A stretch of DNA of 47,711 bases from Bacillota bacterium (lineage in GTDB: Bacteria > Bacillota > Bacilli > Bu12): the NCBI GenBank assembly GCA_014896485.1, contig JADBKH010000011.1, positions 1 to 47,711 of the forward strand, written 5' to 3'. Each line of letters starts with the position of its first letter. The stretch's first letter is position 1. Made by a program: the position numbers and the translations under genes. Below, one piece after another: positions 1 through 4,792 of this stretch. The notes beneath the pieces were generated by a model. It ran no database searches, was not told the origin of the DNA, and worked only from the letters and a program-made list of their open reading frames with translations.

Positions 1-1374
1 GGAGCGCTTCCCATTCGACCACCAATTCCTGGCATCGAGGCGTCCAATCTCTGGTTTCTGCGTACGGTTGATGATGCTGTGACGCTGCGGGCATTTTTAG
101 AAAGCCGCCATCCACAATACGCTGTCGTCATCGGAGCCGGGTTTATCGGGTTGGAAGTGGTCGAAGCGCTGCTGCGTCAGCATTTGTCTGTCACTTTGGT
201 CGAGATGGCACCGCAAGTCTTGCCTCCACTGGATGGCGAGATGGCTGCAGTGGTCGCCACCGCCTTGCGTAAGGAAGGTGTCGAGCTCGTGCTGGGTGAC
301 GGTATAGCTGCGTTTGAAGGCGAGCAAGAGGCGAACGGTGTGGTCTTGCAATCCGGTCGACGTATTCGCGGAGATCTGTTTGTCGCTGGATTAGGGGTAC
401 GCTCCAATGTGGCTCTGGCAAAAGAGGCCGGGTTGCGCCTGGGTTCCAAAGGCGGTATCTGGGTGGATGCGCAGATGCGCACAAGCGATCCTGAGATCTT
501 TGCTGCAGGAGATGCGGTGGAAGGGTTGGAACGAGTGACAGCGGAACCAGCACTTTTTGCCTTGGCTGGGCCGGCAAACAAGCAAGGTCGCATTGCAGGG
601 GAGAATGCAGCCGGGGGCAACTTGAACTATCATGGCGCACTCGGCACAGCGATCGTGCGCAGTGGATCGGTGGTCGCTGCAATAACTGGAATTTCGCAAC
701 GACGGGCGGAAACGATGGGCATCCCTTACCAGGTCAATTACATCGTCACTCCTCACCATGCCGCTTATTATCCAGGCGGCAAAGAAATACTGATCAAATT
801 GCTCTGGTCACCGAACGATGGGCGCGTGCTCGGTGCGCAGATAGTGGGTGGCAGCGGTGTGGATAAGCGCATCGATGTGCTTGCCACAGCCATTTGGAAT
901 GGCATGACCATCGATGGACTGGCCGATTTAGATCTGGCTTACGCGCCTCCGTTTTCGTCGGCAAAAGACCCGGTGATATTGGCAGGAATGGCTGCAAGCA
1001 ACCGTCAAAGGGGGTTTGTCGACGGCATCATTCCTGAAGAACTGGATACGTTGCTGACGGTAGCACATCGTCTGCAACTGGTCGACGTGCGTGATCCACA
1101 GGAGTTTCAGTCGGGCATCATTGCCGGCGCCATCAACCTCCCCTTAGATCAACTGCGCGAACAGCTGGAGCAGCTTGATCCCAACGCCGATACCGTCGTC
1201 TTTTGTCGAAGCGGCCAGCGGAGTTACCAGGCAGAACGCATTTTGGTGCAACACGGTTTTCGGCACGTTCGAAACTTGTCCGGGGGCTATCTGGCCTGGT
1301 CAGCTTACATTACCAGCAAATCCGATCGCGCGCCGCTGGCAAAGGCTTATTTGCAGGAGGAGTTCTTGCGTTAA
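1..1374 (+). CDS. CoA-disulfide reductase-like flavoprotein fused to rhodanese (5' partial)
   Basis: This is a pyridine nucleotide-disulfide oxidoreductase with a C-terminal rhodanese domain, the CoADR-Rhd architecture that reduces CoA or low-molecular-weight per/polysulfides and handles sulfane sulfur in the cytosol. The frame is open to the left edge: codons before the GTG at 79 read ALPIRPPIPGI, family-typical sequence, so the FAD-binding N-terminus and redox Cys lie outside the window. The visible part has the NAD-binding GAGFIG motif (about nt 136-153), the FAD motif AAGDA (about nt 502-516) and a dimerisation domain. It ends with a rhodanese domain whose active loop CRSGQRS has its Cys at nt 1204-1206. 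The neighbouring DUF302 and redox genes with CsoR/CstR-like operators fit a sulfur-stress role. Substrate specificity cannot be read without the N-terminus. Confidence 0.9.
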   Translation, partial: GALPIRPPIPGIEASNLWFLRTVDDAVTLRAFLESRHPQYAVVIGAGFIGLEVVEALLRQHLSVTLVEMAPQVLPPLDGEMAAVVATALRKEGVELVLGDGIAAFEGEQEANGVVLQSGRRIRGDLFVAGLGVRSNVALAKEAGLRLGSKGGIWVDAQMRTSDPEIFAAGDAVEGLERVTAEPALFALAGPANKQGRIAGENAAGGNLNYHGALGTAIVRSGSVVAAITGISQRRAETMGIPYQVNYIVTPHHAAYYPGGKEILIKLLWSPNDGRVLGAQIVGGSGVDKRIDVLATAIWNGMTIDGLADLDLAYAPPFSSAKDPVILAGMAASNRQRGFVDGIIPEELDTLLTVAHRLQLVDVRDPQEFQSGIIAGAINLPLDQLREQLEQLDPNADTVVFCRSGQRSYQAERILVQHGFRHVRNLSGGYLAWSAYITSKSDRAPLAKAYLQEEFLR

Positions 1375-1927: not shown

Positions 1928-1955
1928 ATTATACCAGATGGGGTATTATGTACAA
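1928..1955 (-). promoter_or_regulatory. Promoter of the DUF302 gene
   Basis: On the minus strand a perfect -10 TATAAT (1933-1928) follows a weak -35 TTGTAC (1955-1950) with a 16-bp spacer. The inverted repeat at 1931-1946 fills most of the spacer and overlaps the -10, a position where a repressor would block polymerase. Confidence 0.65.
1931..1946. promoter_or_regulatory. CsoR/CstR-like operator 1
   Basis: ATACCAGATGGGGTAT is a 16-bp inverted repeat, ATACC-N6-GGTAT. It has the same length and ends as the repeat at 2022-2037. Operators of CsoR-family repressors (copper-sensing CsoR, persulfide-sensing CstR) have this TACC(C)...(G)GGTA form. The sulfur and thiol nature of the flanking genes favours the CstR type, but that assignment is inference. 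Confidence 0.6.
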
Positions 1956-1994
1956 TGGGGATGCGTGGGTAGCTCAATGCAGAGAGAAGGGTGC

Positions 1995-2023
1995 TTGCTC
2001 ACAGGAATCGAGGATGCTATAAT
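1995..2023 (+). promoter_or_regulatory. Promoter of the groES-grx-ccdA operon
   Basis: The -35-like TTGCTC (1995-2000) and a perfect TATAAT (2018-2023) are separated by 17 bp. Transcription would start near 2030, inside the second inverted repeat, leaving a leader of about 40 nt before the ATG at 2070. No HrcA CIRCE element is visible, unlike the usual groESL promoter. Confidence 0.65.
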
Positions 2024-2037
2024 ACCCACATGGGTAT
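2022..2037. promoter_or_regulatory. CsoR/CstR-like operator 2
   Basis: ATACCCACATGGGTAT is a near-perfect palindrome (ATACCC-ACAT-GGGTAT) overlapping the -10 and the likely start of transcription of the groES operon. It matches operator 1 in length and outer bases, so one repressor probably controls both divergent units. No repressor gene is in the window. It could lie upstream of position 1. Confidence 0.65.
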
Positions 2038-2069: not shown

Positions 2070-2345
2070 ATGCAAATCGAACCTTTGGACGATCGGGTGC
2101 TCGTTTTGCCGCAACAGCAAGAGGAAGTGCGCTCTCCTGGAGGGATTGTTGTCCCTCAGACAGCGCAGGAAGCACCACAGCGTGGCAAGATCGTAGCTGT
2201 GGGGAATGATGCGTCCTTACGTGAGCTGCTTCACGAGGGAGACGAGGTCCTCTATGCCAAGTTTGCCGGGCAAGAGGTGAAAATTGAGGGAGAAACCTAT
2301 CTGATCCTCAACCGTGGGGACGTATTGGCCATCATCAGAGCGTAA
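2070..2345 (+). CDS. groS: GroES-type co-chaperonin (10 kDa), without groEL
   Basis: The 91-aa product has the GroES fold signature: N-terminal IEPLDDRVLV, a mobile loop (about residues 17-32) containing SPGGIVVP, GKIVAVG, and C-terminal ILNRGDVLAII. The GGIV core of the mobile loop, which docks on GroEL, is intact. The frame is open upstream through the promoter, but the ATG at 2070 has a GGAGG site (2053-2057) and starts the homologous region. The next gene is a glutaredoxin, not groEL. A GroES alone in a thiol-redox operon is unusual. It may serve a GroEL encoded elsewhere or have a specialised, stress-linked role. Confidence 0.9.
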   Translation: MQIEPLDDRVLVLPQQQEEVRSPGGIVVPQTAQEAPQRGKIVAVGNDASLRELLHEGDEVLYAKFAGQEVKIEGETYLILNRGDVLAIIRA

Positions 2346-2360
2346 GGAGGAGGATCGACC

Positions 2361-2594
2361 ATGGTAGTTGTCTATACGACGCAGAGTTGTCCTTACTGCC
2401 GCATGACGAAGCGTTACCTGCAGGAGCATCGGATTCCTTTTCGTGAGGTCGATGTTGGGCGGGACCCGCAAGCTGCTGCTATGCTGGTTCGCAAGACTGG
2501 GCAAATGGGGGTGCCCGTGACAGAAGTAAACGGGCGTTATATTATCGGGTTTGATCGGGAGAAGCTCAACCGAGCCCTGGGGGTCGCAAGCTGA
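2361..2594 (+). CDS. Glutaredoxin / NrdH-like redoxin
   Basis: This 77-aa single-domain thioredoxin-fold protein has the dithiol motif CPYC (C10, C13), a cis-Pro block GVPV (P52) and a C-terminal GFDREKLNRAL helix. Such proteins reduce disulfides or persulfides in the cytosol. The ATG is preceded by GGAGGAGGA with good spacing and lies 15 nt after the groES stop, so the two are co-transcribed. Position in an operon with CcdA and a presumed sulfur-sensing operator suggests it works on protein or low-molecular-weight thiol persulfides, but that is inference. The short length fits the NrdH/Grx3-like class found in Gram-positive bacteria. Confidence 0.9.
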   Translation: MVVVYTTQSCPYCRMTKRYLQEHRIPFREVDVGRDPQAAAMLVRKTGQMGVPVTEVNGRYIIGFDREKLNRALGVAS

Positions 2595-2613
2595 TTCCGA
2601 TCGCAGGCAGAGT

Positions 2614-2642
2614 GTCCAGGCCCGTATGGACCTGGACCTTTT
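2614..2642 (+). terminator. Possible weak terminator or attenuator after grx
   Basis: GTCCAGG (2614-2620) pairs with CCTGGAC (2631-2637), with two extra C-G pairs inside and a GTAT tip. It is followed by CTTTT and a mixed tract. The T-tract is short, so it may only reduce transcription into ccdA. Confidence 0.4.
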
Positions 2643-2775
2643 CATCTTAAGCGAGATGTCCTTGCCATATGAGACACACCAGCGCTATGGTAATCGCTTG
2701 GTGGTGTTGGAAATCGACGCGGCCTCGACAGAACGCACCCTGGCCGCTGCACTCCACGATTTTGTCTGCCGATAG
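2626..2775 (+). CDS. Possible small ORF between grx and ccdA
   Basis: A 49-codon frame starts at an ATG inside the hairpin at 2614-2637 and ends at a TAG at 2773. An inner ATG at 2656 would give 39 codons. Neither start has a convincing ribosome binding site. The translation contains RLVVLEIDAASTERTLAAAL, which looks protein-like, but I recognise no family. It fills the gap between grx and ccdA and could be a small partner protein or nothing. Confidence 0.25.
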   Translation: MDLDLFILSEMSLPYETHQRYGNRLVVLEIDAASTERTLAAALHDFVCR

Positions 2776-2821: not shown

Positions 2822-3529
2822 ATGCCGAGCGTTTCTGTACTTGCAGCATTTCTTGCGGGCCTGGTCTCCTTCATCTCTCCCTGTGTATTACCCCTTGTTC
2901 CAACTTACATCACCTACCTGGGTGGCGGCTCTGCGGAGATCGTTGCGACAGAAGGGACTGCTTCGGCGCGCAAGACGCTCTATCTCAACAGTGTGCTGTT
3001 CATCGTCGGATTCTCCGTCATCTTTATTCTTCTTGGCCTTGCGGCAAGTGGCGTCGGTCAGTTGCTGCGCACCTATCATGGCGTGCTGGTTCGTGTTGCT
3101 GGAATCCTCATCATCGGTTTTGGCGTGTTGCAGCTTGCCTCGCTTCGTTATGCTTTTCTCAACCGTGAGTTTCGTTTACAGGTGCGGGAGCAGTCTGTCT
3201 CCTGGGTCACTTCCTTGCTGATCGGGATGGCCTTTGCGATTGGGTGGACTCCATGTATCGGACCCATCTTGGGTAGTATCTGGTTGTTGGCCAGTACCCA
3301 AGAGACCCTCTGGCAAGGTGCCGGTCTGTTGACGATCTATTCGGCAGGACTGGCTCTTCCCTTTTTGGCGGTCACTGTACTGCTTGGACGGTTTATGGGG
3401 TGGTTTCGCCGTTTTTCCCGTTACTTGCCCTGGATCACTGTCGCTTCCGGCATCTTGATGATTGTGCTGGGTATCATGGTGTTGAGTGGTACTTTCGCAC
3501 GCCTGGCCTCTTTGGTACCGGGGTTATGA
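2822..3529 (+). CDS. ccdA: CcdA-type thiol-disulfide transporter
   Basis: This 235-aa integral membrane protein has about six transmembrane helices and belongs to the CcdA/DsbD-beta family, which carries reducing equivalents from cytosolic thioredoxin to extracytoplasmic thiol proteins. The two essential Cys lie in SPCVLPLVP (C21) and GWTPCIGP (C145), in helices 1 and 4. The start is ATG 2822 behind a TAGGAGGT site. Length matches B. subtilis CcdA. The window shows no cytochrome c biogenesis genes (resB, resC). With glutaredoxin upstream it more likely supports envelope thiol or persulfide reduction in this regulon, which is inference. Confidence 0.92.
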   Translation: MPSVSVLAAFLAGLVSFISPCVLPLVPTYITYLGGGSAEIVATEGTASARKTLYLNSVLFIVGFSVIFILLGLAASGVGQLLRTYHGVLVRVAGILIIGFGVLQLASLRYAFLNREFRLQVREQSVSWVTSLLIGMAFAIGWTPCIGPILGSIWLLASTQETLWQGAGLLTIYSAGLALPFLAVTVLLGRFMGWFRRFSRYLPWITVASGILMIVLGIMVLSGTFARLASLVPGL

Positions 3530-3622: not shown

Positions 3623-3874
3623 GTGGCGGTTTATCCAGGAGGTGGCGCACCCGGTTTGTGGATGATGGGTTGGTGCTCCATGTGGTTTGGATGGCTGCTG
3701 GTTACCATTGGGGTGATTGTCGGGATCATCTATTTTATCCGGTATTTGATCAGACATTTCCATACCGATCCGGCAGAGGAGCTGCTGCGCAAGCGCTATG
3801 CGCAAGGCGAGATCTCCGACGAGGAGTTTTCGCAGCGCTTGCAACGCCTAAAAGAAGCCAAGCAACGCAAATAG
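3623..3874 (+). CDS. Small membrane protein with SHOCT domain
   Basis: This 83-aa protein starts at a GTG behind GAGGGGGAG. It has one hydrophobic segment (about residues 13-42, Trp/Met-rich with LLVTIGVIVGIIYFI), then a cytosolic C-terminal SHOCT motif: DPAEELLRKRYAQGEIS followed by DEEFSQRLQRLKE. SHOCT segments are short C-terminal helical pairs found on many small membrane proteins, and no activity is known. It ends the operon and is followed by a strong terminator. Single-helix SHOCT proteins are common near copper or redox genes, consistent with the operators upstream. Confidence 0.8.
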   Translation: MAVYPGGGAPGLWMMGWCSMWFGWLLVTIGVIVGIIYFIRYLIRHFHTDPAEELLRKRYAQGEISDEEFSQRLQRLKEAKQRK

Positions 3875-3880
3875 TAGACA

Positions 3881-3906
3881 AAAACGCCCGGCGTAACGGG
3901 CGTTTT
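3881..3906. terminator. Bidirectional terminator
   Basis: AAAACGCCCG (3881-3890), loop GCGTAA, CGGGCGTTTT (3897-3906) form a 10-bp stem with A- and T-tracts on both sides. It can end the ccdA-SHOCT unit on the plus strand and the diiron-protein gene on the minus strand. Confidence 0.9.
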
Positions 3907-3923
3907 TGTGGATAGGCGTTTTC

Positions 3924-4682
3924 TTAGGCAGCTTTAACAATGCCGATGCGCTTGTTTTTCCGCTCCAGATCGTCTTCGATGGTACCGAAGAAAGCATCCG
4001 GATCGATGCCGAGCGTTTCGACGTCGTCTTTCATCCGCACATACATCTTCTTCATCATGTCTAGCAGATCATCACGCATGGCAAGCATACGTGGCGTCAG
4101 CTCGTCACCTTTCTTTTCGATCGCCTTGCCAAGTGTGTGGACAGAAAAGGCTTGATGACGTCCCTCATCGACCAGGATATGGGCCGCCAGATCCCCAGCC
4201 GGATGGCCGTCCAACGATTTCGCAATCCAGCCATAGAACTGTTTGGCCAAAATATCACAGATGAGAATCCCGTACAGCCACTCGCTTTTGTCTTGCACTT
4301 CGAGCAGACGATGGTGGAACTGGAACATCTCCGGAAAACGGTGCATGGGAATGGGATCGACCTTCATGGTGCGATAAAGGCGGTTGAGCGCTTCAAAATG
4401 CCTCGCTTCGTCTAAGCCCATCGTGGAAAGGTAAAGCTCTTCGGGTGCTTCCCCTTCCTGCAGGTACTGTGGGAGTACGGTCGCTACGCCTGACATTGCG
4501 ACTTGCTCACCCAAATAAACCGGCGTGATCAGGCGTCCCAACGCACGGGCCTCGATGCCGTCCAATCCCGACGGAGCATTCCAATCGATGACCGTCGCAG
4601 GCTGCCATTGCCCTGCGATGCCCTTGTTGTACAATTGCATCGTCTGCGGATCTGTGTTGAGATCCGGGTGCAATTTCATCAT
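3924..4682 (-). CDS. Ferritin-like diiron carboxylate oxidase/oxygenase (R2-like)
   Basis: This 252-aa soluble four-helix-bundle protein shows the complete diiron ligand set: E59 (in YLGEQ), E92 and H95 (DEARH), E134 (KSEWL), E173 and H176 (DEGRH), that is E, ExxH, E, ExxH. The QWQPATVIDW block near the N-terminus is typical of the ribonucleotide-reductase-R2-like oxidase group that also includes many hypothetical ferritin-like oxygenases. The substrate is unknown. The ATG at 4682 was chosen because GGGAGGGCG precedes it, and an upstream in-frame ATG at 4724 has no ribosome binding site. It has its own promoter and stands alone between a terminator and the alcohol dehydrogenase operon. Confidence 0.8.
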   Translation of the reverse strand: MMKLHPDLNTDPQTMQLYNKGIAGQWQPATVIDWNAPSGLDGIEARALGRLITPVYLGEQVAMSGVATVLPQYLQEGEAPEELYLSTMGLDEARHFEALNRLYRTMKVDPIPMHRFPEMFQFHHRLLEVQDKSEWLYGILICDILAKQFYGWIAKSLDGHPAGDLAAHILVDEGRHQAFSVHTLGKAIEKKGDELTPRMLAMRDDLLDMMKKMYVRMKDDVETLGIDPDAFFGTIEDDLERKNKRIGIVKAA

Positions 4683-4792
4683 GGTTTCGCCCTCCCACAT
4701 TCTTAAAACCTGGTACCAAATCATGCTTCTAGAATCTGCTATTTAAAAGAGACCATCACAATCCGTCCTTTGCCTTCCCGCATCCTTTTGGC

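Follow-up and report, generated by a model that had tools for sequence, protein, structure and literature searches.

Putative CstR-type operators on the divergent promoters of a DUF302 gene and a roofless, glutaredoxin-paired groES in a Bacillota genome

Which regulator would act on two divergent promoters that lie between a DUF302 gene and a groES gene with no adjacent groEL, and why would a co-chaperonin be found among its targets? We addressed these questions in a 47,711-nt stretch of a Bacillota genome, the window hereafter. A first-pass annotation had reported two inverted repeats, each overlapping the −10 box of one of the divergent promoters, and had taken them for CsoR/CstR-like operators of a persulfide-responsive regulon with unusual members.

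Operators, promoters and genes

A pattern scan of the window found two exact ATACC-N6-GGTAT repeats of 16 bp, ATACCAGATGGGGTAT at 1931 to 1946 and ATACCCACATGGGTAT at 2022 to 2037, in agreement with the first-pass annotation in both position and sequence. A third match was absent from the whole window even when one mismatch was allowed. Domain searches identified the flanking genes as the previously named CoADR-rhodanese, DUF302 protein, Cpn10/GroES, glutaredoxin (Grx), DsbD_TM/CcdA and SHOCT proteins, and added to that gene list a ResA/TlpA fragment between grx and ccdA. The features are as follows.

1 to 1374, plus strand: CoADR-rhodanese of the CoA-persulfide reductase type (Pyr_redox_2 + Rhodanese), truncated on its 5′ side by the contig end
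1495 to 1899, minus strand: DUF302 protein (PF03625, E 1.6e-20)
1928 to 1933, minus strand: leftward promoter, extended −10 box TATAAT preceded by TGG, read from the sequence
1931 to 1946: putative CstR-type operator of the left promoter (DUF302), exact pattern, overlapping the leftward TATAAT
2018 to 2023, plus strand: rightward promoter, extended −10 box TATAAT with TG at 2015 to 2016, read from the sequence
2022 to 2037: putative CstR-type operator of the right promoter (groES-grx), exact pattern, overlapping the rightward TATAAT
2070 to 2345, plus strand: lone, roofless GroES of 91 aa (PF00166, E 5.9e-24), no adjacent groEL
2361 to 2594, plus strand: glutaredoxin of the YruB family with CPYC (TIGR02196, above cut-off)
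2551 to 2775, plus strand: broken ResA/TlpA-like gene fragment without the active-site part (phmmer match to the C27 ResA at E 3e-8)
2822 to 3529, plus strand: CcdA-type membrane thiol transporter (PF02683)
3623 to 3874, plus strand: small membrane protein with a SHOCT domain (PF09851), possibly the last gene
3878 to 3909: inverted repeat with a T run after the SHOCT gene (terminator scan)

Both −10 boxes are perfect TATAAT hexamers that were read by eye, a consensus promoter scan of the window having listed neither. The left operator terminates within the extended −10 of the leftward promoter, TGG-TATAAT (1936 to 1928 on the minus strand), and the right operator starts within the rightward extended −10, TG-C-TATAAT (2015 to 2023), and spans the likely transcription start. 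The −35 element is weak at both promoters (TTGCTC at 1995 to 2000 for the rightward one, also read from the sequence), consistent with extended −10 promoters. We infer that ccdA is probably in the same transcript as groES-grx; it begins 227 bp after grx, which makes co-transcription uncertain.

The start codon of the DUF302 gene is uncertain, the candidates being GTG at 1899 and a TTG slightly further in. Contigs C27 (end of L010, C27:21608) and C3 (window positions 1 to 60) each hold part of the CoADR gene; both contig ends carry the 10-mer ggagcgcttc, in different frames, and comparison with the CoADR of locus L223 suggests that about 125 bp are missing between them. The C27 copy of the ResA/TlpA-like gene (L010:3715-4266) is itself damaged by an in-frame TAG beside the CxxC motif. 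On the minus strand, window positions 3924 to 4724 have a weak likeness to R2-like ligand-binding oxidases, below curated cut-offs.

A CstR-type repressor and its putative regulon

With one mismatch allowed, shuffled versions of the window held 0.39 matches on average, and 4 of 100 had at least two, so the window by itself is no more than suggestive, and it is the genome and its relatives that carry the case. Genome-wide, seven exact sites were found versus none for a reversed-pattern control. Five of them overlap −10 boxes, those of cstR, a PDO-like protein (C36:8272; 218 aa with two thioredoxin-type domains), a Blh-rhodanese (C27:19855; Blh being persulfide-dioxygenase-like), DUF302 and groES. 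The sites at C42:3625 and C63:101515 were dropped as operators because they lie inside ORFs of unrelated genes. Single-mismatch sites were located before DsrE-TusA-FAD-DUF1641 genes (L009:271, contig C36) and between a single-domain rhodanese gene and the 5′ part of the CoADR gene (L010:4783, contig C27). Operators at the Blh-rhodanese (exact) and CoADR (one mismatch) genes are of the target type expected of CstR. By their sequences, the five promoters of persulfide/thiol genes very probably make up a putative CstR regulon in this genome. The DsrE-TusA-FAD oxidoreductase-DUF1641 genes (L009:341-2581), directly upstream of cstR, probably also belong to it.

Relatives of the DUF302 protein at E ≤1e-12 occur in 135 of 399 Bacilli genomes. 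We sampled 40 loci around the best DUF302 relatives in other Bacilli, 554 kb in all. A CsoR/CstR-like gene was present in 29 of these loci at a median distance of 0.75 kb, mostly together with rhodanese, Blh, TusA and DsrE genes. The exact operator occurred in 25 of the 40, and ResA-CcdA was also near CstR in four. The repeats are thus conserved in related genomes at the same kinds of genes. DUF302 and CcdA were considered as odd members and rejected, both being common near CstR in Bacilli. As to the unusual members proposed earlier, the claim for groES stood, no groES having been found in the CstR/DUF302 clusters of the 40 loci, and that for ccdA fell, since with ResA it is a usual companion of CstR. 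On sequence grounds, the unusual member of the putative regulon is groES, part of a conserved Grx-GroES pair. A literature search, with most subscription papers outside its reach, found no mention of DUF302 together with CstR. A CsoR-family protein adjoining DUF302 in G754 (L234, G754:C36:145893) lacks the second Cys (VACQVAQQ) and is for this reason possibly a non-persulfide sensor.

That the palindromes arose by chance or are a general promoter feature is hardly credible: the shuffles allow it for the window taken alone, but the genome-wide excess over the control, 44 sites versus no reversed-pattern site in the DUF302 loci and the recurrence of the operator at the same Grx-GroES gene pair in other families all argue against it.

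The genome (2.17 Mb, 96% complete) has only one gene of the CsoR family, located on contig C36 (PF02583, E 8.8e-22), and this is a gene of the kind expected for such operators, with two Cys and no copper His. Its product has Cys at both CstR positions and YxxxC in place of the HxxxC of copper sensors, such that Tyr occupies the His position of the copper-sensing Cys-His-Cys site. Among PDB entries, 7MQ1-3 match this protein best (E 8e-14); they carry the label csoR, and we take them to be structures of Streptococcus pneumoniae CstR. In a quick tree, the C36 protein groups with CstR-like proteins of rhodanese/DUF302 clusters (NxxxC; SH-aLRT 97) and apart from CsoR (99), a placement that rests on its long branch. 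The cstR promoter carries the exact operator ATACCCGCAATGGTAT over its own TATAAT, which bears out the assignment of the window repeats to the CsoR/CstR type. By these residues, the sole CsoR-family protein of the genome is of the CstR type and not a copper CsoR. The operators might instead serve a CsoR-family sensor of copper or another metal, with the genes answering metal stress, as PF02583 is common to CstR and copper CsoR, copper CsoR operators are likewise C-run/G-run palindromes, and thiol genes can respond to copper. We nevertheless regard a metal sensor as very improbable, given that the only candidate lacks the copper His and is nearest to CstR structures, and that sulfur/thiol genes, and no copper gene, were identified at the five promoter sites.

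A glutaredoxin-paired GroES subfamily

The genome contains two further groES genes, one of them with groEL on contig C45, the other at a contig edge (C26). A YruB-like glutaredoxin gene adjoining groES without groEL was found in 10 other genomes. Six are Bacillota, five of them recovered by a search with the lone GroES (G754, G583, G758, G464 and G654) and one by profile search (G189), and four are Neomarinimicrobiota (L176-L179). The pair occurs in both gene orders, and the other Bacillota that have it span five families, or six with our genome included. Profile searches found the lone type in 6 of 398 Bacillota genomes and 2 of 399 Bacilli, our genome being counted in both. The Grx-paired lone GroES is rare but widespread. 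Two further profile matches, the GroES of G414 and G677, were rejected as they proved to be canonical groESL.

The operator recurs ahead of the leading gene of the pair in these Bacillota, with no mismatch in our genome, G464 and G189, one in G754, G758 and G654, and two in G583. Shuffling gave P ≤0.035 for each locus, G583 and G758 belonging to the same family and hence not being independent. The operator directly follows TTGACA/TATAAT in G464; in G189 it lies right at a TTGACA, approximately 300 nt before grx, and the intervening leader (L267:8525-8829) matched no Rfam family above threshold. By comparison, 63 upstream regions of canonical groES genes, including those of our genome, G654 and G464, held no exact operator and one with a single mismatch. 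In G654, grx, groES and a PDO gene form an operon divergent from OsmC-like and CoADR-rhodanese genes (L223:4925-8808), and a CsoR-family gene with its own exact operator lies about 6 kb away; thiol genes that are dispersed in our genome stand together there. The repressors of G583, G758, G654 and G464 keep HxxxC, which makes the effector in those genomes less certain.

The four Neomarinimicrobiota genomes yielded no CsoR-family gene, so the pair also exists apart from CstR. There the pair lies immediately downstream of two genes, one ECF-sigma-like and the other small, Cys-rich and anti-sigma-like (L176:4887-6270, L177, L178, L179; named by eye), which suggests another redox control of the Grx-GroES module.

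The lone GroES has both a Cpn10 domain and the GroEL-binding mobile loop, with its hydrophobic motif and GGIV, and lacks both the roof β-hairpin and the adjacent groEL of canonical groESL. All Grx-paired GroES proteins lack 6 to 8 residues of the roof hairpin, and nearly all lone GroES proteins have an Arg before the C-terminal [GSQ]D. A structure model (pLDDT 85.5) places a short helix where the roof would be. The best fold matches are the Cpn10 structures 1P3H and 1WNR, with phage T4 Gp31 (1G31) further down the list at E 1.9e-3; Gp31 also lacks the roof hairpin. In a tree built on 94 columns, with several long branches and with canonical GroES sampled only outside Neomarinimicrobiota, the Grx-paired proteins of both phyla form one side of a branch with support 100/98. 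A literature search of the same reach found nothing on a roofless, Grx-paired GroES subfamily.

The control by CstR could be real and groES a mere passenger, the regulated function being that of glutaredoxin, with or without CcdA, and GroES being redundant or degenerating. The two other groES genes of the genome and the absence of GroES from the 40 sampled CstR/DUF302 loci fit this explanation. However, the pair persists across two phyla in both gene orders, and its GroES proteins form one branch with a common loss of the roof and a retained mobile loop. Together these observations suggest a selected function, and we consider the passenger explanation unlikely.

Proposed mechanism and comparison with known systems

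The reading that best joins these data, and that we hold to be likely, is that both repeats are operators of the single CstR-type repressor and that persulfide releases the module. Reduced CstR would sit on the −10 elements and block both promoters. Sulfane sulfur (persulfide or polysulfide) would link its two Cys residues as di- or trisulfides, upon which CstR would leave the DNA; we infer this response of the regulon from knowledge of the CstR family. Release would permit expression of DUF302 leftward and, rightward, of groES-grx, which ccdA and the SHOCT gene would probably accompany. CstR would also regulate itself and control the Blh-rhodanese and the PDO-like protein through the three further exact promoter sites.

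As judged from its retained features, the lone GroES most likely caps normal GroEL, probably under thiol or persulfide stress, with Grx reducing client thiols. One idea is that the roofless lid lets Grx or small thiols into the GroEL cage. A broader proposal, which we see as possible rather than likely, is that the roofless, Grx-paired GroES is a dedicated co-chaperonin of thiol/persulfide stress that replaces the normal GroEL lid under sulfane-sulfur stress, its open dome giving Grx or small thiols access to persulfidated or disulfide-bonded clients. It would be driven by CstR-type repressors in Bacillota and by ECF-sigma/anti-sigma pairs in Neomarinimicrobiota. If true, such a specialised, redox-linked stress lid for GroEL would be new. 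The CstR response would be extended from sulfur-transfer chemistry to protein folding, a suggested link not described before, and the DUF302 family, whose function is unknown, would gain a role in Bacilli persulfide defence that can be tested.

The CstR/cst system of Staphylococcus aureus also comprises a two-Cys CsoR-family repressor without the copper His and sulfur-transfer targets, but S. aureus CstR likely directly regulates a single operon (PMC5480029), whereas here at least five promoters at three loci, including groES-grx, are concerned. CstR leaves DNA once sulfane sulfur links its cysteines (PMC5480029, PMC9405070), as does Bacillus licheniformis YrkD (PMC9918477), in keeping with the release proposed here. 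The targets in the YrkD cluster (PMC9918477) and of Enterococcus faecalis CstR-CoAPR (PMC9405070) are likewise rhodanese, DsrE/TusA, persulfide dioxygenase and CoADR-rhodanese; in contrast, they include no GroES and occupy one or two clusters. Thermus thermophilus TTHA1953 is likewise a thiol-sensitive CsoR-family repressor with sulfur genes dispersed in the genome, but it differs in its consensus, TACNNTACN4GTANNGTA, with another spacing, and its targets are sox genes (PMC10318464). Finally, the lone GroES shares the Cpn10 fold with GroES/Cpn10 co-chaperonins and T4 Gp31 and keeps their mobile loop, and it differs from ordinary Cpn10 by its shorter roof, its Grx partner in place of an adjacent groEL and the nearly constant Arg before [GSQ]D.
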